Assembly (NCBI RefSeq): GCF_040907265.1
Contig: NZ_JBFOHP010000002.1
Coordinates: 434,001 to 498,000, forward strand
Direction of reading: 5' to 3'
Origin: Streptomyces sclerotialus
GTDB lineage: Bacteria > Actinomycetota > Actinomycetes > Streptomycetales > Streptomycetaceae
Length of the DNA: 64,000 bases
In this document: piece after piece, positions 1 through 9,478 of the stretch
How the letters are laid out: the number at the start of each line of letters is the position of its first letter
Position numbering within the stretch: position 1 is the first letter of the stretch
Translations under genes and position numbers: made by a program
Notes under the pieces: model-generated
Seen by the model: the letters and a program-made list of their open reading frames with translations, nothing else
What the model was told of the DNA's origin: nothing
Database searches by the model: none

Positions 1-393
1 GTTCCTGCCGAACTCGCGTGGTGTGGTGGCGACGGTCGGCGACTCCTGCCCCTCGTCGAACACTGCCTGTTCGGGCGGCCGGATGCGGATCACCGAGCGG
101 CGGTCGCCCCGGTTCCGCCGTGGCTTCCGGATGTCGCGCCAGCGACGGTAGGCACCCTTGTGGGGAGACTGCGCGCCATCGGTGTTGCCCAGGTAGACGA
201 CCACGGTGTCCCAGCGTCGCCGCGCCTGCACGCGCAGGTAGTAACGCGCCGCGTCAGCGCTGCTGAAGGCCGGCACCGCATGGTTCTCGATCCGGTGTGC
301 CCTGCCCAGTAATGCGTGCAGGACCACCGGGTACACGGCTTGCGGGGCCCCGATGCCGGCGCTGCACGAATCGCCGAGGACCAGGATTCTCAT
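1..393 (-). CDS. SGNH/GDSL-type hydrolase, truncated by the window edge
   Basis: Only the first 131 codons are visible; the gene continues past base 1. The protein opens MRILVLGDSCSAGIGAP, a beta strand running into a GDS-x-SAG block typical of SGNH/GDSL esterases, where the Ser is the nucleophile. Further on, VVVYLGNTDGAQS resembles the block III region (G-x-N-D) with Thr between Asn and Asp. It starts at ATG 393 behind AAGGAGGG, 12 nt after the MFS stop, so it is very probably translated from the same message. Its position as the last visible gene of the P450/pentapeptide operon suggests esterase or acyl-transfer tailoring of the product, which is inference. Family assignment is moderately sure because most of the domain is outside the window. 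Confidence 0.7.
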   Translation of the reverse strand, partial: MRILVLGDSCSAGIGAPQAVYPVVLHALLGRAHRIENHAVPAFSSADAARYYLRVQARRRWDTVVVYLGNTDGAQSPHKGAYRRWRDIRKPRRNRGDRRSVIRIRPPEQAVFDEGQESPTVATTPREFGRN

Positions 394-405
394 GGTGTCC
401 CTCCT

Positions 406-1653
406 TCACGGTTCGTGGCGCAGCGTCCTGACGGAGGACGCCGTCAGCGGGAGCAGAGCGAAGAACGCGTACAGAATGCCGCCCACCAGAGCGACGCGTG
501 AGGCGCCGAAGGCGTCCGCGAAGCGGGCGGCAGTGAGCTGCCCGGCGGGGATGGCGATGAACGAACCGAGATTGTCGTAGGAAGAGATCCTGGACAGCAT
601 GTGACGGGGCACGTGGTCCTGGAGGGAGGTCTCCCAGGCGATGCCGTACACGCCGGTCCCCAGCCCCGCGACAAACGTCGCAACAGCCAGCCAGTAGACG
701 TCCGCCCGCAGTCCCAGTGCCAGCAGCGGCAGGGCGGTCAGTGCGATGCAGAGCTGTCCCAGCGGCAGCAGGCGCCTGACGGTGACGCGGTACATCACCA
801 GCGCCATGAGCAGTACGCCCACCGACTTGACGCTGAGGACCAGGCCCCATGCGGCCTCCCCGATGCTTCCCTTGGCGATGAGGGGGCCGAGGACCGTCCA
901 GATGCCGACCTGGAGGTAGTTGGTGACACCGAAGGAGGCGACGATGGCCCACACCCAGGTCCGGGAGGTGAACTCGGTCCATCCCTCCCGGATGTCGGCC
1001 AGCGGACTCTTCTTGGGGGGCGGGGTTTTCGTGTCGAGGTGCAGTTGTGCCAGGCAGAAGGCGGCGACGAGGTAGGTGGCGGCGTCGGCGGCGATGGCCC
1101 AGCCGCCGCCGGCGGTGGCGACGAGTGTGCCACCCGCCGTGGGGCCGAGGATCTTCGCTGCGTTGCGAGCGGACCCCAACAGCGAGTTCGCCTTCTGCTT
1201 CTGGTTCTTCGCGACGATGTCCGGAACGATCCCCCGCAGTGCCGGGGTGGTGAAGGCCGTCATCGTGCCGTTCAGGAATTCCAGGACGACCAACGCGCCG
1301 AGGTGGTAGTTGCCTGTCAGCAGCATGGCGGCGACGGCTGCCTGGGTGAGCCCCGCACCGGTGTGGGACAGCAGCAGGACCCACTGCCGCGAGAACCGGT
1401 CGCCGATCACTCCTCCGGCCAGCGTGAAGAGGATGACGGGAACGGTCTGCGCGGTGAGTACCACGCCCATGTCCCCGGCGCTGCCGGAGGCGTTCAGTAC
1501 GGCGAAGGCCAGGGCGACCGGCGCCATCGCGCTGCCGAGCAGCGAGACGATGCGGCCGGTGAAGAACCATGCGAAGGCCCGGACGCGCAGCGGGCTTTCG
1601 GGGCCGGTGTCCGCCTGGTCGGCAGCGGCATCGGTCTCTTTTTCCAGGCTCAC
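406..1653 (-). CDS. MFS transporter, EntS/multidrug-exporter type
   Basis: This is a 415-residue integral membrane protein with about 12 hydrophobic segments, beginning after a polar N-terminal tail (MSLEKETDAAADQAD). The loop motif GGVIGDRFSRQWVLL after the second helix is the major facilitator signature, and the overall layout resembles EntS-like exporters that secrete siderophores or antibiotics. It lies between the methyltransferase and the SGNH hydrolase, all on the minus strand, with only 12 nt to the next gene. The natural inference is that it exports the small-molecule product of the operon and confers self-resistance. The substrate cannot be read from sequence. The 140-nt gap upstream could hold an internal promoter. 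Confidence 0.85.
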   Translation of the reverse strand: MSLEKETDAAADQADTGPESPLRVRAFAWFFTGRIVSLLGSAMAPVALAFAVLNASGSAGDMGVVLTAQTVPVILFTLAGGVIGDRFSRQWVLLLSHTGAGLTQAAVAAMLLTGNYHLGALVVLEFLNGTMTAFTTPALRGIVPDIVAKNQKQKANSLLGSARNAAKILGPTAGGTLVATAGGGWAIAADAATYLVAAFCLAQLHLDTKTPPPKKSPLADIREGWTEFTSRTWVWAIVASFGVTNYLQVGIWTVLGPLIAKGSIGEAAWGLVLSVKSVGVLLMALVMYRVTVRRLLPLGQLCIALTALPLLALGLRADVYWLAVATFVAGLGTGVYGIAWETSLQDHVPRHMLSRISSYDNLGSFIAIPAGQLTAARFADAFGASRVALVGGILYAFFALLPLTASSVRTLRHEP

Positions 1654-1793: not shown

Positions 1794-2534
1794 TCAGCCT
1801 TCCCATCGTAGGTACGTTGTCTTCGCCCTGCCGGGCAGCACGAATCTGACGGCGCCTCGGTCCAGCCCGAGGGAGTCCCGCAGCGCTGCGGTCTCACCGG
1901 GCCAGCCCTCGTGCGCGACCTCGTCGAAGGCGAGGATGCTCCCCTTCGTCAGGTAGGGCACCAGGGCGGTCAGGACCTCCTTGGTCGGCACGTAGAGGTC
2001 GAGGTCGAAGTAGGCCATGGCCACGACGGTGTGTTCGTGGGCCGCCAGGTACTCCTTGACCGTTGTGCTCGCGTCACCGCGGACCAGTCGTACGGGGCTC
2101 TTGCCCGACCCGTCGCCGTTCCGGGCTGCCAGTGCCGCTTGCAGGTGGTCGGGAAAGGACGGCGGGAGACCGAATTTCTCCGGCGTGCCGGCAGGGCCGC
2201 CTCCGTCGATGTCAACGGCGCCCTGGAAGCCCTCGAAGGTGTCGAAGCCGATGATCTCCCGGTGCACGTTGTGCGGCTCGTATATGTCCCGGAGCTCCGA
2301 GAGGAGCGCGAGGTGCCGTCCTTGGAGCACGCCGAACTCCATCATCGCGCCCGGTACCTCGTAGGCCATGCGGTACAAGGCGTCCATCGCCAGCACGTCG
2401 ACGAGGGGCCGTCGCCGCAGGTAGAGGGCCAGCGTGTCGACGAGGTCCGTGGCGTCGATCGGCGACTCCCGCAACAGGTTCGCCAGCGCATGTCGCACGC
2501 TCTGGTCATGGTCCATCGTCTTCTCCACCGACAC
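1794..2534 (-). CDS. TylF/MycF-family O-methyltransferase
   Basis: A class I SAM-dependent methyltransferase of the macrocin O-methyltransferase (TylF) family, 246 residues from GTG 2534. Visible marks are the SAM-binding segment MEFGVLQGRHLALL, then IIGFDTFEGF, and the acidic metal-binding stretch FDLDLYVPTKEVL, which in TylF/MycF holds the Mg2+ used for catalysis. I chose GTG 2534 (or GTG 2528) because GGGAGG lies just upstream. The ATG at 2606 overlaps the ATP-grasp stop by 11 nt but has no convincing ribosome-binding site. Members usually methylate sugar or amino-acid hydroxyls on natural products, so here it probably tailors the peptide or an appended group. The target is unknown. Confidence 0.85.
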   Translation of the reverse strand: MSVEKTMDHDQSVRHALANLLRESPIDATDLVDTLALYLRRRPLVDVLAMDALYRMAYEVPGAMMEFGVLQGRHLALLSELRDIYEPHNVHREIIGFDTFEGFQGAVDIDGGGPAGTPEKFGLPPSFPDHLQAALAARNGDGSGKSPVRLVRGDASTTVKEYLAAHEHTVVAMAYFDLDLYVPTKEVLTALVPYLTKGSILAFDEVAHEGWPGETAALRDSLGLDRGAVRFVLPGRAKTTYLRWEG

Positions 2535-2595
2535 GTGTCCTCCCTTGTTCCCGTCGTTTGCACCGGCGGGCACCGAAGCGGCTGCCCGGCCGGTC

Positions 2596-3840
2596 TCAGT
2601 GCGCATGGCCGCTCAGCGCCGCGGGCGCCGTACCGTGGATGTCAGCCACGACCGACACCGCCGCGTCCATCGCCTGCCGGCACTCGGCTTCCGACCGCCC
2701 CTCCACCGCCGCGAACGCCACGCTCGTCGACGTGGTCTCCGCCATGTCGCGCATGACGGCCCCGTAGGGCACGCGCATCATCACGGCCGTCACCCCCGGC
2801 ACTCCGGCCAGGTCCTCCGGGCGTACCCGGTTCACCCGCCCTGGGACGGTGGGCAGGTGGACGAAGCCATGCGTCACGCCGCGGGTCACAGGACCACGCG
2901 GGACCGGATCTCCGAGGACCGCCCGCGCACCAGCAGCCCACAGGTCGACGCCGATCGTGCGCTCCCCCATCAGACCGATCATGCCTCCTCCTGGCCGGCA
3001 GGCGAGTTCCCCGGCGATGAAGGCGGCCGGCCGGCCGAAAGCCTCGAAGTGGAACACGCCCCGTTCCACACCGAGAGCCCGCAGGACCCGCTTGGTGAAC
3101 GCGGCTGCCCCGGCGTACGTCACGGCATTGCCGGACGGCGCCAGCGCCAGCGACATGACCGGACGGCCCTGCTTGGTGCACAGCAGGGGCTCGAGGTAGC
3201 GGGAGACCATGAGGGCGGTCGGTTCGCCTCCTTCGACGACACCGTCGAAGTGCCACTCCGGCTCATCGACGTACTGTTCGAGGAGCACGCGGCCTCCACC
3301 GTCGATCGTGCCGGCGGCCTCCTGCAGTTCGGCGAGGTCATGGACCAGCCTTACGTGCTTGCTTCCACCGTCCGCCGGTGGTTTCACGACCACCGGGAAA
3401 CGCAGGCCCGCACGCAGCAGGCTCCGCCCCACCTCCGTACTGGAGCCGGCTCCGTCCGGCAGCACGCACCAGGGCGCCGTCGGCACCCCGGCAGCGGCCC
3501 ACCTCTCCTTCTGGACCGCCTTGTCCCGACAGGCCAGCGCCGTGTCCGGCGCGACGGCCCGGGCACCGATGAGCCGTCCCAGTACCGCCGCGGACACCAC
3601 GGCGGGCTCGCTCGCCGTCAGCACCGCTTCGACAGGGCGGCGGGGCGCGAGGTGGCGCAGTGCGGACCAGAGGGACTCCACCTTCGCATAGGAGTCGACC
3701 GCGCAGGTGCGGTCCACCATGGCCGCCACGTCGGAGACCCGGTCTCTGTGGCGCACTTCGTAGAGCAGTGTGACCTCGTGCCCGTCGGCGCGCAGCCCGC
3801 GCACCACTTCGGCCCGCGGGCCGACGAGTAGGACATGCAT
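2596..3840 (-). CDS. ATP-grasp carboxylate-amine ligase
   Basis: A 414-residue stand-alone ATP-grasp enzyme. The N-terminal Rossmann-like preATP-grasp fold (MHVLLVGPRAEVVRGL) is followed by the ATP-binding Lys region FPVVVKPPADGGSKHV, the segment VLLEQYVDEPEWHFDGVV, and the Mg2+-binding GELACRPGGGMIG. Such enzymes activate a carboxylate as an acyl phosphate and join it to an amine, as in BacD-type dipeptide ligases and peptide-tailoring ligases. ATG 3840 was chosen because the ligase fold begins exactly there; an open frame continues upstream but overlaps the membrane-protein gene. It sits 28 nt after that gene and runs into the methyltransferase. It likely adds an amino acid or amine to the pentapeptide-derived core, which is inference. 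Confidence 0.85.
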   Translation of the reverse strand: MHVLLVGPRAEVVRGLRADGHEVTLLYEVRHRDRVSDVAAMVDRTCAVDSYAKVESLWSALRHLAPRRPVEAVLTASEPAVVSAAVLGRLIGARAVAPDTALACRDKAVQKERWAAAGVPTAPWCVLPDGAGSSTEVGRSLLRAGLRFPVVVKPPADGGSKHVRLVHDLAELQEAAGTIDGGGRVLLEQYVDEPEWHFDGVVEGGEPTALMVSRYLEPLLCTKQGRPVMSLALAPSGNAVTYAGAAAFTKRVLRALGVERGVFHFEAFGRPAAFIAGELACRPGGGMIGLMGERTIGVDLWAAGARAVLGDPVPRGPVTRGVTHGFVHLPTVPGRVNRVRPEDLAGVPGVTAVMMRVPYGAVMRDMAETTSTSVAFAAVEGRSEAECRQAMDAAVSVVADIHGTAPAALSGHAH

Positions 3841-3868: not shown

Positions 3869-5482
3869 TCAGTGGGGGCCGGCGATCGGGATCTCGAGGG
3901 CGAAGAGGAACTGATTGCGCAACCGCAGCCAGGTGCGCCGTTCGGACGAGTACAGCTCTTCGCGATACCACACGGCGACTTCCGACACGGGTCCCCTGTC
4001 CCTGCGGTACCGAGGCAGATCGCCCCAGTAGTAGAGGTGGCCACCGGGGGCCTTGAGCCGGCTGAGGAACCGCGGCAGCGGGCTCTTCGGGGCACCCGCG
4101 TTGAGGTTGGACAGCAGCCGCCTGAGGTACGTCGTGTGTCTTTCCGTGTACGGCCCGCTCCACTGCACGGTGCCGTGCCGGTGCTTGGCGTGCTCGATGT
4201 CGTCCTGGTGCGGACGAGCGCGCACCAGAAGATCGCGCAGCGCGGTGTCCTCCACGCCTCCGAGGGAGAACGTGACGAAGGGTTCGGGCACCAGGGGGTT
4301 CCCGAGAGCGCGGGCGTACTCACGGTCGTGCGGGCTGAAGAAGTCGTTGTGCAGTCCGTACTGCTTCCCGTCACGCGTCCGGACCGTCCACACCACCCGT
4401 GCCGTGAAGGGCGTGTCCCACCACCCCAGCCCGGTGGGCCGCCAGGCCCACCCCGCCAGCACCGCGGCCATGAGGGCGTTGCTGAACAGCCACGGCCACA
4501 GCCCGAAAGCCGTGGCATCGCCGGCTTCGCGTGACGTGCTGACCACCCCGGCGAGTACCATGCCCACGCCGATGTTCTCCCAGAAGAGCAGCCCCGATGT
4601 CAGCGCGACGACGCAGTTGAACACGACGGCACCGGCAACGGCGGCCACGAAACACCACTCGTCGGCGAAGGCGACCAGTCCGGCGAGCTCCAGCACCATG
4701 GTGCCGGCGTTGAGGAACGGGCTTGCCGGACGCAGGCCGTTGACCAGCGTTGCCGCCGTCCGCGCCGGGACGAAGCGCGCCCATCCCCATGAGTAGGAGG
4801 ACGCCACCAGCAGATCGGTGCGGTTCTCCAGCGTCCAGGACCACGGCCGACGGCCCAGCTTCGCCTTGCTCCGGGCGGCCACCACGTAGTGGGAAAGGTA
4901 AGCGGTCCCGAGCAGCACGACGAGTGCCGTGCTGCCTGACGCGGCAGACGTCAGTCCCAGGGCGTGCAGCACACCATCGGACAGGGACCAGCAGAACGCC
5001 ACCTTCACCAGCCGGATGCAGGCCTTGGAGTGATGCGTCCAGCCTCCCAACCGCCCGCACAGCACACCCAGCGCCGCCAGTGCCAGGGCCGGCAGGAGCA
5101 GCGCGGCCGCGCCGACGGCGAGTACGACGATCCGGTCGGCTCGCTGCCATCGCACGCTCAGCGCCGCGTCGTAGTCGAGCGTGAGGTACTTCCACCACAC
5201 CAGGAGCAGTGCGGCTTCGGGGACCAGTGCCATGGCACCGGGCGGAGTGGAACCCACCACCCCGTAGGCCGCGCCGGCCGCGAGGAGCGCGGCGCCGGCC
5301 GCGAGGGACGGTCCCGGCCGCGGAGCCCTCTCCGGGTAGGCGCCGTTGAGTGCGGTTTCCGGGTATCGGCCGCTGCCGAGCCGCTCGGCGCACCAGCGGA
5401 GCAGCGGCGACACCAGCCCGCGGTACGCCACTACGGCCAGCGCGATGTCGGCCGCGGTCGCGGCGTGAGCGGGCAGCGGCAT
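3869..5482 (-). CDS. Multi-pass membrane protein of unknown function, possibly HTTM-like
   Basis: A 537-residue protein I do not recognise with confidence. The first ~340 residues contain around eight hydrophobic helices (for example LLAAGAALLAAGAAYGVVG and AVGAAALLLPALALAALGVL). The motifs SHYVVAARSKAKLG and LENRTDLLVASSYSWGW between helices recall HTTM-domain proteins, the membrane relatives of vitamin-K-dependent gamma-carboxylase and SdpB; this resemblance is weak. The C-terminal ~200 residues are soluble and rich in Trp, Tyr, Arg and His (GGHLYYWGDLPRYRRDRG). It begins with ATG 5482 behind AAGGAG, 139 nt after the pentapeptide stop, and is followed by the ATP-grasp gene. Its place directly after the precursor suggests maturation, transport or immunity. 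Confidence 0.6.
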   Translation of the reverse strand: MPLPAHAATAADIALAVVAYRGLVSPLLRWCAERLGSGRYPETALNGAYPERAPRPGPSLAAGAALLAAGAAYGVVGSTPPGAMALVPEAALLLVWWKYLTLDYDAALSVRWQRADRIVVLAVGAAALLLPALALAALGVLCGRLGGWTHHSKACIRLVKVAFCWSLSDGVLHALGLTSAASGSTALVVLLGTAYLSHYVVAARSKAKLGRRPWSWTLENRTDLLVASSYSWGWARFVPARTAATLVNGLRPASPFLNAGTMVLELAGLVAFADEWCFVAAVAGAVVFNCVVALTSGLLFWENIGVGMVLAGVVSTSREAGDATAFGLWPWLFSNALMAAVLAGWAWRPTGLGWWDTPFTARVVWTVRTRDGKQYGLHNDFFSPHDREYARALGNPLVPEPFVTFSLGGVEDTALRDLLVRARPHQDDIEHAKHRHGTVQWSGPYTERHTTYLRRLLSNLNAGAPKSPLPRFLSRLKAPGGHLYYWGDLPRYRRDRGPVSEVAVWYREELYSSERRTWLRLRNQFLFALEIPIAGPH

Positions 5483-5565
5483 CTTGCTCCTTCAGCGTGT
5501 GTGACGACGGTTTCCTGGTTGCTCTTCGGGCCGCGGGACGGGCCCGGCCGGGATCGCCCGGTGGT

Positions 5566-5594
5566 GGGGCGGGCCCGGCAACGGAGCCCGCCCC
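5566..5594 (-). terminator. Stem-loop just after the pentapeptide gene (attenuator or mRNA-stabilising hairpin)
   Basis: Perfect 9-bp arms (GGGGCGGGC and GCCCGCCCC) flank an 11-nt loop, starting 27 nt after the pentapeptide stop on the transcribed strand. There is no U-tract, so a strong intrinsic terminator is unlikely. A partial terminator or 3'-stabilising structure that makes the precursor more abundant than the downstream enzymes is plausible. Confidence 0.4.
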
Positions 5595-5621
5595 CGGTTC
5601 CGGCATCTCTTCGGCCGGTGA

Positions 5622-5639
5622 TCAGTGGTCGTAGCTCAT
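5622..5639 (-). CDS. Five-codon precursor peptide gene MSYDH (putative biarylitide-type RiPP precursor)
   Basis: The complete reading is ATG AGC TAC GAC CAC TGA: Met-Ser-Tyr-Asp-His-stop. A perfect AAGGAGG ribosome-binding site lies 5 nt before the ATG. It sits on the same strand in the 288-nt gap between the P450 gene and the membrane-protein gene, where no longer coding frame explains that site. In established biarylitide clusters an 18-nt gene encodes MRYYH and a neighbouring P450 joins the ring of Tyr-3 to His-5. Here Tyr-3 and His-5 are kept while residues 2 and 4 are Ser and Asp. I infer a Tyr-His crosslinked tripeptide Y-D-H, further tailored by the operon. Gene order differs from biarylitide clusters, since the P450 comes first here. 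Too short for normal gene finders; conservation in relatives would settle it. Confidence 0.7.
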   Translation of the reverse strand: MSYDH

Positions 5640-5644
5640 GGTGG

Positions 5645-5651
5645 CCTCCTT
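5645..5651 (-). promoter_or_regulatory. Perfect ribosome-binding site of the MSYDH gene
   Basis: AAGGAGG on the minus strand, spaced 5 nt (CCACC) from the ATG at 5639. It is the strongest such site in this operon and has no other start codon to serve, which is the main reason for calling the five-codon gene. Confidence 0.7.
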
Positions 5652-5770
5652 CCTCGTCGGGTGACTCCGAGCCGCTCGGGGCAGGTAGGCCGGTCCCCGA
5701 GGTCCAGTGGTCTGCGCGGCTCGGTGGCGGCAGGGCCGGCGCAGTGGCACGCGTCGGCGGTACGTACGCG

Positions 5771-6970
5771 TTACCTGCGCCCGGCCGCGAGGGCTTCGGC
5801 TCCGGACTCGCTGCGGAACGTCACCGGGAGGGTGTCGATGGTCCTGACCGTCGCCGTCGGACGCCTCGTCGGCGTACCGGCGAGCGTGAGCGGTCGCGGT
5901 GCGTGCAGCAGACCGAGAACGAGTTCGCGGATGGCCGCCCGGCCGAAGAGTGCGCCGAGGCAGGCGTGCGGGCCCCAGCCGAAGCTCAAATGCTGGTTCG
6001 GCGCTCTGTCGAGGACGAGCCGGTCGGGGTGTGCGAACTGATCGGGGTCGCGGTTGGCTGCCGCGAGCAGCGTGAGGACGACCTCCCCGGGCTCGATCAC
6101 GGTGCCGCTGACGACCATGCGTTTCACGGCGACCCGGCTCGTCCCCTGGGCCGGCCCGTCGTAGCGGATCAGCTCGTCCACCGCGGTGGGCAACAGGGAC
6201 TCGTCGCGGTGCAGCGCCGCCAGAACCTCCGGGTGGCGGAGCAGGGTGAGGACGACGTTGCCGGCCGTGGCGAAGATCGTGCCGTAGCTGGCGTTGAACA
6301 TGACCCCCGTCGTGTTGCGGATGTAGTGCTCGGGGACACGTGCTCGTTCCGCATCCCGGCGCACGTCCGCCAGAACTCCGGGGCGTTCCTCCGCGCCGAG
6401 CCAGTTCTCGACCAGCCGGTTCAGCTGGTGACGCGCGCGGTCGCCCACCCCGGCGCGGTCGGGTACGAGTCCGGCGTCCATTCTCCGTGCAATACCGTCC
6501 GAGATTTCTGCGTACTCCGCACCGTTCGGCTCTTCCACGCCCAGCAGTTCGGCGGTTACTCGCAGCGCTACCGGCGCGGCGACATCGCGCATCCAGTCGA
6601 ACTGTTCCCGGTCTGCCAATCGGTTGAAAAGCGTATGGATATGACTGCGCGCCCGCCGGGCGATCTCGACCGGATTCTGCTGGCGAAAGGAGTTCATCAG
6701 CAGGCTGCGCAGCGGTTTTTGCGCCGGCGGATCAAGCGATTGGAGGCTCTGCCGGAACTCCGGCACCTCTTCACCGATCCGCCGCCGGTCGCGAGCGAAG
6801 TCCTCGTGATTCCGCAGCACGTCGCGGCAGTCCCGATACGTCAGGAGCACCCACGACCGCATGGTCTCATGCCAGAAGACCGGGGTCCGCGCCCGCAGTT
6901 CGGCATAGAGGGGGTACGGGTCGACCAAGGTCCGGAAGTCCAGTGGATCATAAAGATGCGTTAAGTCCAC
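5771..6970 (-). CDS. Cytochrome P450, putative peptide-crosslinking enzyme
   Basis: A bacterial class I P450 of 399 residues from GTG 6970. It shows the ExxR pair in DELIRYDGP and the haem-binding loop FGWGPHACLG, with the ligand Cys at about residue 337. The I-helix reads FNASYGTIFATAGN: the usual AGx(E/D)T is replaced by A-S-Y-G-T, so the conserved acid is missing but the Thr at ~231 remains. Loss of the acid is seen in several P450s that perform crosslinking or act on unusual substrates. GTG 6970 is preferred because GGAAGGGA sits 7 nt upstream; ATG 7003 and ATG 7042 are in frame but lack good sites. It is the first gene of the operon, 131 nt before MSYDH, and should need a ferredoxin and reductase encoded elsewhere. 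Confidence 0.9.
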   Translation of the reverse strand: MDLTHLYDPLDFRTLVDPYPLYAELRARTPVFWHETMRSWVLLTYRDCRDVLRNHEDFARDRRRIGEEVPEFRQSLQSLDPPAQKPLRSLLMNSFRQQNPVEIARRARSHIHTLFNRLADREQFDWMRDVAAPVALRVTAELLGVEEPNGAEYAEISDGIARRMDAGLVPDRAGVGDRARHQLNRLVENWLGAEERPGVLADVRRDAERARVPEHYIRNTTGVMFNASYGTIFATAGNVVLTLLRHPEVLAALHRDESLLPTAVDELIRYDGPAQGTSRVAVKRMVVSGTVIEPGEVVLTLLAAANRDPDQFAHPDRLVLDRAPNQHLSFGWGPHACLGALFGRAAIRELVLGLLHAPRPLTLAGTPTRRPTATVRTIDTLPVTFRSESGAEALAAGRR

Positions 6971-7361: not shown

Positions 7362-8057
7362 ATTCGAGTCCTGCTCACTGCCGTGGAGCCGTTCGGCAGC
7401 GATGCCGTCAACGCGTCGTGGGAGGCCTGTCGGCTCGTGGCCGACGCCCCGCCGGCGGACCTGCACTTGGAGCTCGTCCAACTCCCCTGCGTCTTCGGAA
7501 AATCGCTGACGGTACTCCACGATGCGGTCAGCCGAACCGAGCCCGACCTGGTCGTGGTGACCGGCCAGGGAGCCAACCGCCCCGACATCACCGTCGAACA
7601 GGTCGCCATCAACCTCGACGACGCCGTGGCCCCGGACAACAAGGGCAACCAGCCGGTCGATGAGCCGGTCGTGGCGGGCGGCCCCGATGCCTACTTCTCC
7701 TCACTCCCGGTCAAGGCCTGTGTCGCGGCGATGCGGAAGGCCGGGATACCCGCTTCGGTCTCGCACACCGCCGGTACGTACGTCTGCAACCACATCGCCT
7801 ACGGGTTGGGCCACGTGATCGCCACCGAACGCCCTGAGATGCGTGGCGGCCTCGCTCATGTTCCCTACACTCCCGCCCAGGCCGCGTCCAGGGAGAGACG
7901 CCCGTCCCTGGCGAGCACAACGGCCGCCGAAGGACTGCGCGTTCTCCTGCGCACCGCGGCCGCCGCGGTGCAGGAACCGCGACGCCCCGACGCCGGGGCC
8001 GCTGCTCCGGCACGTCGCACGTGGCTGTCCCGGAAGCTGTCCGGTCCGTTGCGCTGA
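7362..8057 (+). CDS. pcp: Pyroglutamyl-peptidase I (pyrrolidone-carboxylate peptidase)
   Basis: A C15 cysteine peptidase that removes N-terminal pyroglutamate from peptides. All three catalytic residues can be placed: Glu in ITVEQVAINLDDA, Cys in GTYVCNHIAYG, and His in GGLAHVPYTPAQA. The pocket motif DNKGNQPVDEPV is also present. The family starts with a strand reading M-x-VLLTGFEPFG. Here that strand (RVLLTAVEPFG) is in frame before the first GTG at 7383, so a start at 7383 would delete it. Upstream, GGAGG at 7349-7353 is correctly spaced only for ATC 7359 or ATT 7362, implying a rare non-AUG start. The last ~50 residues are an Ala/Arg-rich extension. It diverges from the P450 operon; a role there is possible but unproven. 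Confidence 0.85.
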   Translation: MRVLLTAVEPFGSDAVNASWEACRLVADAPPADLHLELVQLPCVFGKSLTVLHDAVSRTEPDLVVVTGQGANRPDITVEQVAINLDDAVAPDNKGNQPVDEPVVAGGPDAYFSSLPVKACVAAMRKAGIPASVSHTAGTYVCNHIAYGLGHVIATERPEMRGGLAHVPYTPAQAASRERRPSLASTTAAEGLRVLLRTAAAAVQEPRRPDAGAAAPARRTWLSRKLSGPLR

Positions 8058-8134
8058 GCTCCACCGCACCTGCGGCGAGGCGCGGTGGTCCCACCCGTCA
8101 TTCGCCTCCTTCCCCCACGACACCGGGAGGCTCC

Positions 8135-9478
8135 GTGCTGCCCACGACCGTCCTGGCGGCCACCGACGCCAATCTTTCCTTCGCCCTGAAGGTCCTGCCC
8201 GCCCTTGTGGTGATCCTCGCGGCGTCCGCGCTGTGCGGGCAGCTCGCTCTGCTCATGCACCAGCCCAGGGTGCTGGGCGAGATGGTCGCCGGCGTTCTGC
8301 TGGGCCCGACAGCCTTCGGCGCGCTGTTCCCCGAGGCACAGCACGCGGTGTTTCCTCCCGAAGTGAAGCCCGTACTTTACGTGCTGAGCACCATCGGCCT
8401 CACTCTCTTCATGTTCCTGGTCGGCGCCGGGCTGGATCACGGCGGCGAGCGTGCGGACATCCGGAACGCCGCGGTGCTGGCGCTGTCCGGCGTCGTTCCG
8501 TCCCTGCTGCTCGGCGCGGGCGCGGGCTATCTGCTGCACGGCCGGCTCTCCCGTCCCGACGTAGGACCGTACGAGTTCGCCTTCTTCGTCGGGGGCGCGT
8601 TGTCGATCACCGCCTTCCCCATGCTCGCCCGCATCCTTTACGAGCAGCGGCTGGAGAACACCCGGATCGGACGGATGACACTGCTCGGTGCCTCCGTGGA
8701 CGACGCCGCCGCCTGGTGTTTCCTTGCTGTGCTGTCCGCCCTGCACGCCGGGGCCGGGGCCGGGCAGGCGCTGCGCACCATAGGGCTGACCCTGGCCTTC
8801 GCTCTGGTCATGCTCGGGGTCGTCTCCCGGCTGCTGCGACCCTTGGGCGCTCGCGTCCAGCGCTCCGGCCGGTTCGGCTTCAACCACCTGTACCTGGTCC
8901 TCTGCCTCGTTCTCCTGGCCGGGCTGTTCACCGATCACATCGGCATCTACTCCGTGTTCGGCGGTTTCGTCACCGGCCTGGCCATGCCCCGGGCGCCGGC
9001 GTTCCGGGCCGCGCTGCACGACCGGATGATGGACATCGTGTGCGTCCTCCTCCTGCCCGTCTTCTTCGCCTTCTCCGGACTCAACACACAGCTGAACGGC
9101 ATCACCGGCTGGGCCATGTTGCTGTCCTTCCTGCTGATCCTCGCCGCGGGATTCGTGGGCAAGTACGCCGGGTGCGCGGTGGCCATGCGTACCGCCGGGT
9201 TCTCCTGGCGGGCATCCTGGGCAGTGGGGGGCCTGATGAACGCCCGCGGCCTGATGATTCTGATCTTCATCAACATCGGTCTCGCGCAGGGCATGATCAC
9301 CCAGAAGGTCTTCTCGATGCTGGTACTTGTCGCGGTCCTCACGACTGCCGTCGCCGTGCCGCTGTACCGCTGGGCCCGACCCGAACCGTCCGACCTCTCA
9401 ACGCCGACCAAGACCGCGGCCGACCCTTCCACAGCGCCCGGCCCTTCCTCTCCCGAACCGGAGCCGACCCGCCCTTGA
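8135..9478 (+). CDS. CPA2-family cation:proton antiporter (KefB/NapA type)
   Basis: A 447-residue membrane protein with about 12-13 helices. LHQPRVLGEMVAGVLLGPTAFG is close to the first-helix signature (QPRVLGEI-AGILLGPS) of CPA2 sodium/potassium-proton exchangers, and GASVDDAAAWC carries the paired Asp residues expected in the ion-binding site of helix 5/6. There is no C-terminal TrkA-N domain; the tail is a disordered Pro/Ser-rich stretch. GTG 8135 is chosen because GGGAGG lies just upstream; an open frame extends back to 8021 without a site. It follows pcp by 77 nt on the same strand and may share its message. Antiporters of this type sit in several antibiotic clusters, so a link to the RiPP operon is possible but speculative. 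Confidence 0.85.
   Translation: MLPTTVLAATDANLSFALKVLPALVVILAASALCGQLALLMHQPRVLGEMVAGVLLGPTAFGALFPEAQHAVFPPEVKPVLYVLSTIGLTLFMFLVGAGLDHGGERADIRNAAVLALSGVVPSLLLGAGAGYLLHGRLSRPDVGPYEFAFFVGGALSITAFPMLARILYEQRLENTRIGRMTLLGASVDDAAAWCFLAVLSALHAGAGAGQALRTIGLTLAFALVMLGVVSRLLRPLGARVQRSGRFGFNHLYLVLCLVLLAGLFTDHIGIYSVFGGFVTGLAMPRAPAFRAALHDRMMDIVCVLLLPVFFAFSGLNTQLNGITGWAMLLSFLLILAAGFVGKYAGCAVAMRTAGFSWRASWAVGGLMNARGLMILIFINIGLAQGMITQKVFSMLVLVAVLTTAVAVPLYRWARPEPSDLSTPTKTAADPSTAPGPSSPEPEPTRP

Follow-up and report, generated by a model that had tools for sequence, protein, structure and literature searches.

The window, by which we mean the whole 64,000-nt stretch of Streptomyces sclerotialus DNA that was analysed, carries an 18-nt gene for the pentapeptide MSYDH behind a cytochrome P450 gene, within a run of minus-strand genes (Table 1). 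The P450 stop codon ends at 5771, which leaves 131 nt to the short gene on the same strand; here the sequence agrees with the earlier note, which had described the frame, the AAGGAGG motif before it and this spacing. The ORF list of the window holds no minus-strand ORF of at least 100 aa over this spot, and the two plus-strand ORFs that cover it (4964..6964 and 5625..6041) run antisense to the P450 and its operon. The encoded peptide has five residues, aromatic side chains at positions 3 and 5 and its own Shine-Dalgarno sequence, as expected of a biarylitide precursor such as MRYYH, and its fourth residue is the aspartate that characterises the Asp-4/Pgm1-ligase clusters discussed below.

Table 1. 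Features of the MSYDH locus (positions in the window)
Feature	Position	Strand	Remarks
Hydrolase-like protein, start	1..393	-	GDS motif by eye; continues left beyond the window; 51% identical protein in the L010 cluster
MFS exporter	406..1653	-	Proposed to export the product
TylF-like methyltransferase	1794..2606	-	Pfam matches under curated cut-offs; 72% identical copy in the L014 cluster
ATP-grasp ligase	2596..3840	-	Best match of known structure: L-amino acid ligase 4wd3, E 3e-18
Membrane protein, no family assigned	3869..5482	-	In many, not all, clusters of the window's branch
G+C-rich hairpin, one bulge, no T-run	5566..5594	-	3' of the MSYDH stop codon; folding z -2.67
Precursor gene, 18 nt, peptide MSYDH	5639..5622	-	ATG-AGC-TAC-GAC-CAC-TGA; conserved at P450 relatives
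Shine-Dalgarno AAGGAGG	5645..5651	-	5 nt before the MSYDH ATG
Cytochrome P450, biarylitide group	5771..6967	-	GTG start inferred by eye from upstream GGAAGGGA; mechanical ORF to 7048
Pyroglutamyl peptidase I	7383..8057	+	Divergent from P450; also in L009 and L010 clusters, in part in L099
Sodium/proton antiporter	8021..9478	+	Homologues in L009, L014 and L062 clusters; cluster membership uncertain

The folding of the hairpin behind the MSYDH stop codon is equalled by 4 of 200 shuffled sequences. A strong hairpin follows the precursor in all 10 folded loci of the window's P450 branch (defined by the tree below), and a perfect stem of at least 10 within 60 nt after the stop occurs in 7 of 10 branch loci versus 5 of 18 other loci; such a hairpin is therefore common in the branch, not universal after such genes. 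The window's own perfect-stem score over these 60 nt is low (3) because the bulge interrupts its stem, and this count tells in part against the hairpin. Neither consensus promoters nor T-run terminators were found between 5400 and 7400, and the hairpin may serve as a transcript end or a partial stop.

The membrane protein encoded next on the minus strand could be placed in no family: 46 of its homologues gave only single-member stray matches when compared with Pfam up to E = 1 (best E 0.022), and the PDB offered nothing better than E 0.15. Homologues (103 at E 1e-3 among 8000 scored candidates) include many Streptomyces proteins of 38 to 43% identity, so the family extends beyond these clusters; within the stretches examined, the query had no match in L015, L064, L065, L099 and L106, and at E 1e-60 it matched 0 of 195 genomes of the phylum of locus L019, in a search run without a positive control and hence uninformative. 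To the left of the window (L105:14374-18018, minus strand) lie genes for a carbamoyltransferase and a flavoprotein, 73% and 68% identical, respectively, to those of the L009 cluster, and these genes suggest that the cluster reaches past the window's left edge. The rest of the hydrolase-like protein, the carbamoyltransferase and the flavoprotein are each present in one or more relatives' clusters.

Occurrence of the pentapeptide gene across genomes

A P450-based search of GTDB genomes returned 23 loci, and each of the 10 strongest P450 relatives (L009 to L018) has a short precursor within its cluster. MSYDH itself recurs in L009, L010 and L015, and the other precursors are MTYDH (L013), MDYSH (L014), MRYDH (L016), MRYLH (L017), MRYEY (L018), MMYNH (L011) and MIYNH (L012). 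In eight of these ten the precursor stands beside the P450 or no more than 1.7 kb from it; MMYNH (L100:14464, plus strand) and MIYNH (L101:10014, minus strand) lie 7.6 and 9 kb away, between a phosphotransferase gene and genes for an ATP-grasp enzyme and a membrane protein. Adjacency of precursor and P450 is thus not required, since the precursors of L011 to L013 lie away from the P450 end. The remaining 13 loci, whose P450s match at E 9e-27 and weaker, showed no M-x-Y-x-H frame with a Shine-Dalgarno sequence. As a separate observation, a regulator-like gene beside the P450 in S. chattanoogensis (L100) and S. violascens (L101) encodes a protein that starts MSYDSG (L011:9284-10285, plus strand), a likeness to MSYDH that is probably due to chance.

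Within the genus, 39 of 392 genomes match the P450 at E 1e-60, in 43 places, from which 30 loci were scanned and the other 13 left out. Among the 29 new loci, 27 have, within about 4 kb, a frame of five to eight residues that is aromatic at 3 and 5 and preceded by a loose Shine-Dalgarno sequence (two of the 29 also show a second frame, probably by chance), and one more (L063) yielded its short frame in a longer stretch. No short precursor was found in the 4-kb stretch of L050, whose P450 has RufO's Asp169. Some of these loci are repeats: L032/L061 come from the L009 genome, L034/L063 from the L013 genome, and L066 from the plasmid that also holds L107. Outside the genus, one of 396 genomes of the phylum matched the P450 at E 1e-90, the sole match being the window's own genome; the window's P450 branch is therefore rare.

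A frame of only six codons could arise by chance in an intergenic gap, and counting cannot by itself dispose of that explanation. For the pattern ATGNNNTAYNNNCAYTRR the expected count in the window is 0.01, and 1 of 100 shuffles had one; the TRR of the pattern also admits TGG, but the window match ends in a true stop. In the window's own genome (8.28 Mb), which has 29 P450 matches at E 0.001, the MSYDH site is the sole ATG-started M-x-Y-x-H match, and the reversed pattern occurs 3 times. The genomes of ten relatives hold 14 pattern matches versus 33 for the reversed pattern. Since reversed patterns are about as frequent as forward ones, the case rests on place and conservation and not on count alone. 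Once five of the 14 matches, from four genomes, are dropped because they end in TGG and not in a stop, the nine true matches are spread singly over nine genomes and always sit at the P450 locus; the tenth genome (L018) has MRYEY in place of M-x-Y-x-H.

The reverse search of the 392 genomes points the same way. Exact MSYDH with an AGY serine codon occurs four times, each time adjoining this P450, and the reversed-pattern control had no match in these genomes. Sites of the form M-x-Y-(D/N)-H led by a Shine-Dalgarno sequence number 12, in 12 genomes (reversed control, 1), and 11 of them are at such a P450, 10 adjoining it and one (G312) 1.7 kb away; the remaining site, in G292, is not at a P450, and its locus holds masked letters. 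At one of the four exact MSYDH sites (G117; L099:9665-10224, plus strand) the P450 is a remnant, with about 186 residues matched in two pieces, and the MSYDH gene after it is intact.

The form of the gene is conserved as well. An SD-like run precedes the precursor in 11 of 11 aligned loci, and seven loci with the P450 first leave 47 to 145 nt between it and the precursor. The tyrosine codon is TAC or once TAT and the stop TGA or TAA; for serine, the window's branch uses AGC and its sister branch TCG or TCC, so that the peptide is kept while the codons change. A case from another phylum lies on an A+T-rich plasmid of Bacillus arachidis (NZ_CP127373.1), where MNYNH, with the Shine-Dalgarno sequence AAAGGAGG before it and, by eye, a hairpin behind it, stands 69 nt after a P450 that is 53% identical to the window's and reads, by eye, NASFGS in its I-helix (L106:11210-11227, plus strand). 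Two ATP-grasp genes and a cysteine-synthase-like gene lie near MNYNH, and the plasmid is typed as mobilizable. The window's branch is seen in Streptomyces, Streptacidiphilus, Actinokineospora and on this Bacillus plasmid.

Precursor and P450 are thus kept together across genomes, and the check that the earlier note had proposed, whether related genomes conserve an M-x-Y-x-H frame led by a ribosome-binding site, came out positive. We reject a chance frame on place and conservation, and regard it as next to impossible: an MSYDH-type gene, kept in frame and led by a Shine-Dalgarno sequence, recurs at such P450s across families and on the Bacillus plasmid, which in effect refutes it even though the reversed control patterns are about equally frequent genome-wide. 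MSYDH is almost certainly a real precursor of the neighbouring P450 and, judged by its sequence and surroundings, is a biarylitide-type RiPP precursor.

The P450 and its likely reaction

The best solved relatives of the window's P450 are 22YX, P450Blt (8U2M and mutants), 9M47, RufO (8SPP, 9DUJ, 9EBY) and 9JVJ/9JV0 (E 3e-78 to 3e-62), with the next solved P450 beyond the P450Blt/RufO group at 4e-41; the structure codes 8U2M, 8SPP and 9DUJ are named for P450Blt and RufO in the accessible text of PMC12186263. A tree built from 40 P450 rows, P450Blt and 22YX among them as references, with several long end branches flagged and a midpoint root for drawing only, assigns the window to an 11-row branch (support 100/99). 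Its sister, a branch of 10 rows (100/97), joins it at 99/96; the MRYAY enzymes with MRYEY follow, and the P450Blt, MKYWH, MRYVH and MRYLH rows lie with 22YX on the other side. The window's enzyme thus groups with characterised biarylitide P450s both by its solved relatives and in the tree, which bears out the assignment of the earlier note. Among the MRYAY-type clusters, L068, L071 and L077 have two adjacent P450 genes.

Within this group the active site differs from branch to branch. In a sequence alignment, at positions 230, 234, 238 and 239 (P450Blt numbering), P450Blt has the crosslinker set Arg, His, Glu and Ser, whereas the window's P450 has Gly, Asn, Gly and Thr; all 11 rows of its branch have Gly, Ser or Ala at 230, Asn at 234, Gly at 238 (Ser in L035 and L036) and Thr at 239. 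In the sister branch these positions read Arg, Gln, Ser and Thr, in the MRYAY enzymes Arg, Leu, Ser and Thr. Residue 234 tracks the peptide, being His with MRYLH, MKYWH and MRYVH, Leu where peptide residue 5 is Tyr, and Asn or Gln where peptide residue 4 is Asp, Asn or Ser. The accessible text of PMC10929621 calls P450Blt positions 231, 234 and 238 key to specificity, and that of PMC12186263 has Arg188 and Arg231 of RufO binding the peptide amides and C terminus; by our alignment, RufO Arg231 corresponds to P450Blt 230. Because 230, 234 and 238 are replaced in 11 of 11 branch rows, peptide binding and possibly the product differ. In L035 and L036 (both at 2791, minus strand) the precursor has seven residues, MRYDHCL, and the P450s have neither Arg188 nor Arg230; the loss of Arg188 would suit a peptide extended past His-5.

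What the P450 does to MSYDH can be narrowed from these data. The likeliest product, in our view a probable one, would be a Tyr-His crosslink. MSYDH could instead be the substrate of another reaction, namely a Tyr-Asp or Tyr-backbone bond or a hydroxylation, as the rebuilt specificity and peptide-binding positions and the Asp, Asn or Ser at position 4 of the branch members seen might imply. We consider this unlikely, although well above negligible, in view of three points: (i) His-5 is kept in every member seen, the Bacillus plasmid included; (ii) the sister branch shares M-x-Y-D-H despite a different I-helix; and (iii) P450BytO of myxarylin accepts Asp at position 4, according to the available text of PMC12951456.

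A RufO-like pathway, with nitration of Tyr-3 by the P450 and the peptide as only a carrier from which nitrotyrosine is released, must also be weighed. RufO (rufomycin; nitration of MRYLH) is among the close solved relatives and, like the window's enzyme, acts on a pentapeptide. Unlike in RufO, however, Asp169 is Ala and Val240 is Thr in the aligned window P450; the rows with Asp169 (22YX, L050 and L051) sit on the tree's other side, RufO itself not being a row, and an NO synthase domain was not found in the window's own genome by a search that was positive in 2 of 14 known genomes as a control. With no NO synthase match in that genome and Asp169 absent, we judge nitration highly improbable.

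The Tyr-His crosslink remains our preferred reaction, and a pathway around it can be proposed. MSYDH would be the ribosomal precursor, with a ribosome-binding site of its own for translation; the adjacent P450 would oxidise Tyr-3 over its haem and most likely join it to His-5, giving a Tyr-Asp-His ring; Met-Ser would then be removed, probably by a host peptidase. The L-amino-acid-ligase-like ATP-grasp enzyme may extend or cap the tripeptide, neighbouring enzymes possibly methylate and carbamoylate it, and the MFS protein would export the product. In what order tailoring proceeds, and what each enzyme contributes to it, we infer from gene content only.

Relation to known pentapeptide clusters

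Gene content also bears on the final compound. In the stretches examined, the window's ATP-grasp query matches all members of its branch except L099 and L106, in L014 in pieces; L106 has its own two annotated ATP-grasp genes, unmatched by this query. Pgm1 divides the branch: it is matched in L011, L012, L013, L015, L064 and L065 and, in the stretches examined, not in the window, L009, L010, L014, L062, L099 or L106, and neither the Pgm1 nor the amidinotransferase query matched within the window or within 20 kb beyond its left edge (E 1e-6). Lack of Pgm1 is therefore a trait of part of the branch only. Clusters of the sister branch carry Pgm1, an aspartyl hydroxylase, an enzyme annotated as glycine amidinotransferase and a phosphotransferase. 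In nine of its loci (L066, L067, L069, L070 and L072 to L076), MSYDH or MGYDH stands before the P450 and the Pgm1-type gene set follows; these loci show a further ATP-grasp ligase, unmatched in L076.

The L-amino-acid-ligase-like ATP-grasp gene in most clusters of the branch, the carbamoyltransferase and flavoprotein next to the window, and Pgm1 and the annotated amidinotransferase in the sister branch raise the alternative that the peptide is a building block of a larger, ATP-grasp-assembled product and not a free tripeptide. This reading overlaps with the one we prefer, and we hold it to be quite possible, if somewhat below an even chance. Going further, we tentatively put forward, as a rather doubtful extension, a separate branch of pentapeptide RiPPs in which the peptide-holding residues of the P450 are rebuilt around a peptide with Asp, Asn or Ser at position 4; the modified Tyr-x-His would be a ribosomal building block that amino-acid ligases, and not an NRPS, extend into a larger compound, possibly with a crosslink or oxidation new to the biarylitides.

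The MSYDH cluster is not a new class; it is a variant within the biarylitides. The earlier note had called MSYDH a new minimal RiPP precursor, of which the minimal precursor stands and the novelty as a class does not, since the accessible text of PMC13417212 (July 2026) counts 277 biarylitide clusters, 47 of them with a Pgm1 ligase and Asp at position 4. MSYDH as a peptide was not found in the main text of that paper, and the full-text literature returned unrelated uses of the string only. Compared to the biarylitides of BytA/BytO and of P450Blt with MRYLH, the window shares the 18-nt adjoining SD-led gene, the five residues with aromatics at 3 and 5 and the P450 group, and differs in residue 2 (Ser, not Arg or Lys), in residue 4 (Asp), in P450 positions 230, 234, 238 and 239 and in its many possible tailoring genes. 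With the Asp-4/Pgm1 clusters, as far as the text of PMC13417212 describes them, it has in common Asp-4 and an ATP-grasp ligase in the cluster; yet its ATP-grasp enzyme is of another family, it has a membrane protein, the P450-first order and an Asn-Ala instead of a Gln-Gly I-helix, and neither it nor the 20 kb on its left has a match to Pgm1, which some members of its branch do have.

The P450-first order, which the earlier note took to be non-standard, proved to have precedent: MKYWH follows the P450, overlapping its stop, in all three loci read out of the seven with MKYWH. These MKYWH biarylitides (AchB type in the available text of PMC13417212) share with the window a precursor gene directly after the P450 in three loci, and differ in residue 4 and in P450 branch. 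According to the same accessible text, the cluster finder used there covers a 3-kb radius around the P450, and the precursor of another clade lies about 1400 bp downstream; precursors 7.6 to 9 kb away, as in L011 and L012, fall beyond that radius, so such clusters may be under-counted.

Taken together, the window's locus belongs to a well-delimited branch, open to experiment, among the smallest peptide genes known, and the altered P450 active site of this branch makes its chemistry worth testing. In eight of the sister branch's 10 P450 rows the encoded peptide is likewise MSYDH, so that one and the same peptide is paired with two I-helices, Asn-Ala-Ser-x-Gly-Thr in the window's branch and Gln-Gly-Gly-x-Ser-Thr in the sister branch. 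Comparing both P450 branches on MSYDH would show which residues set the reaction.
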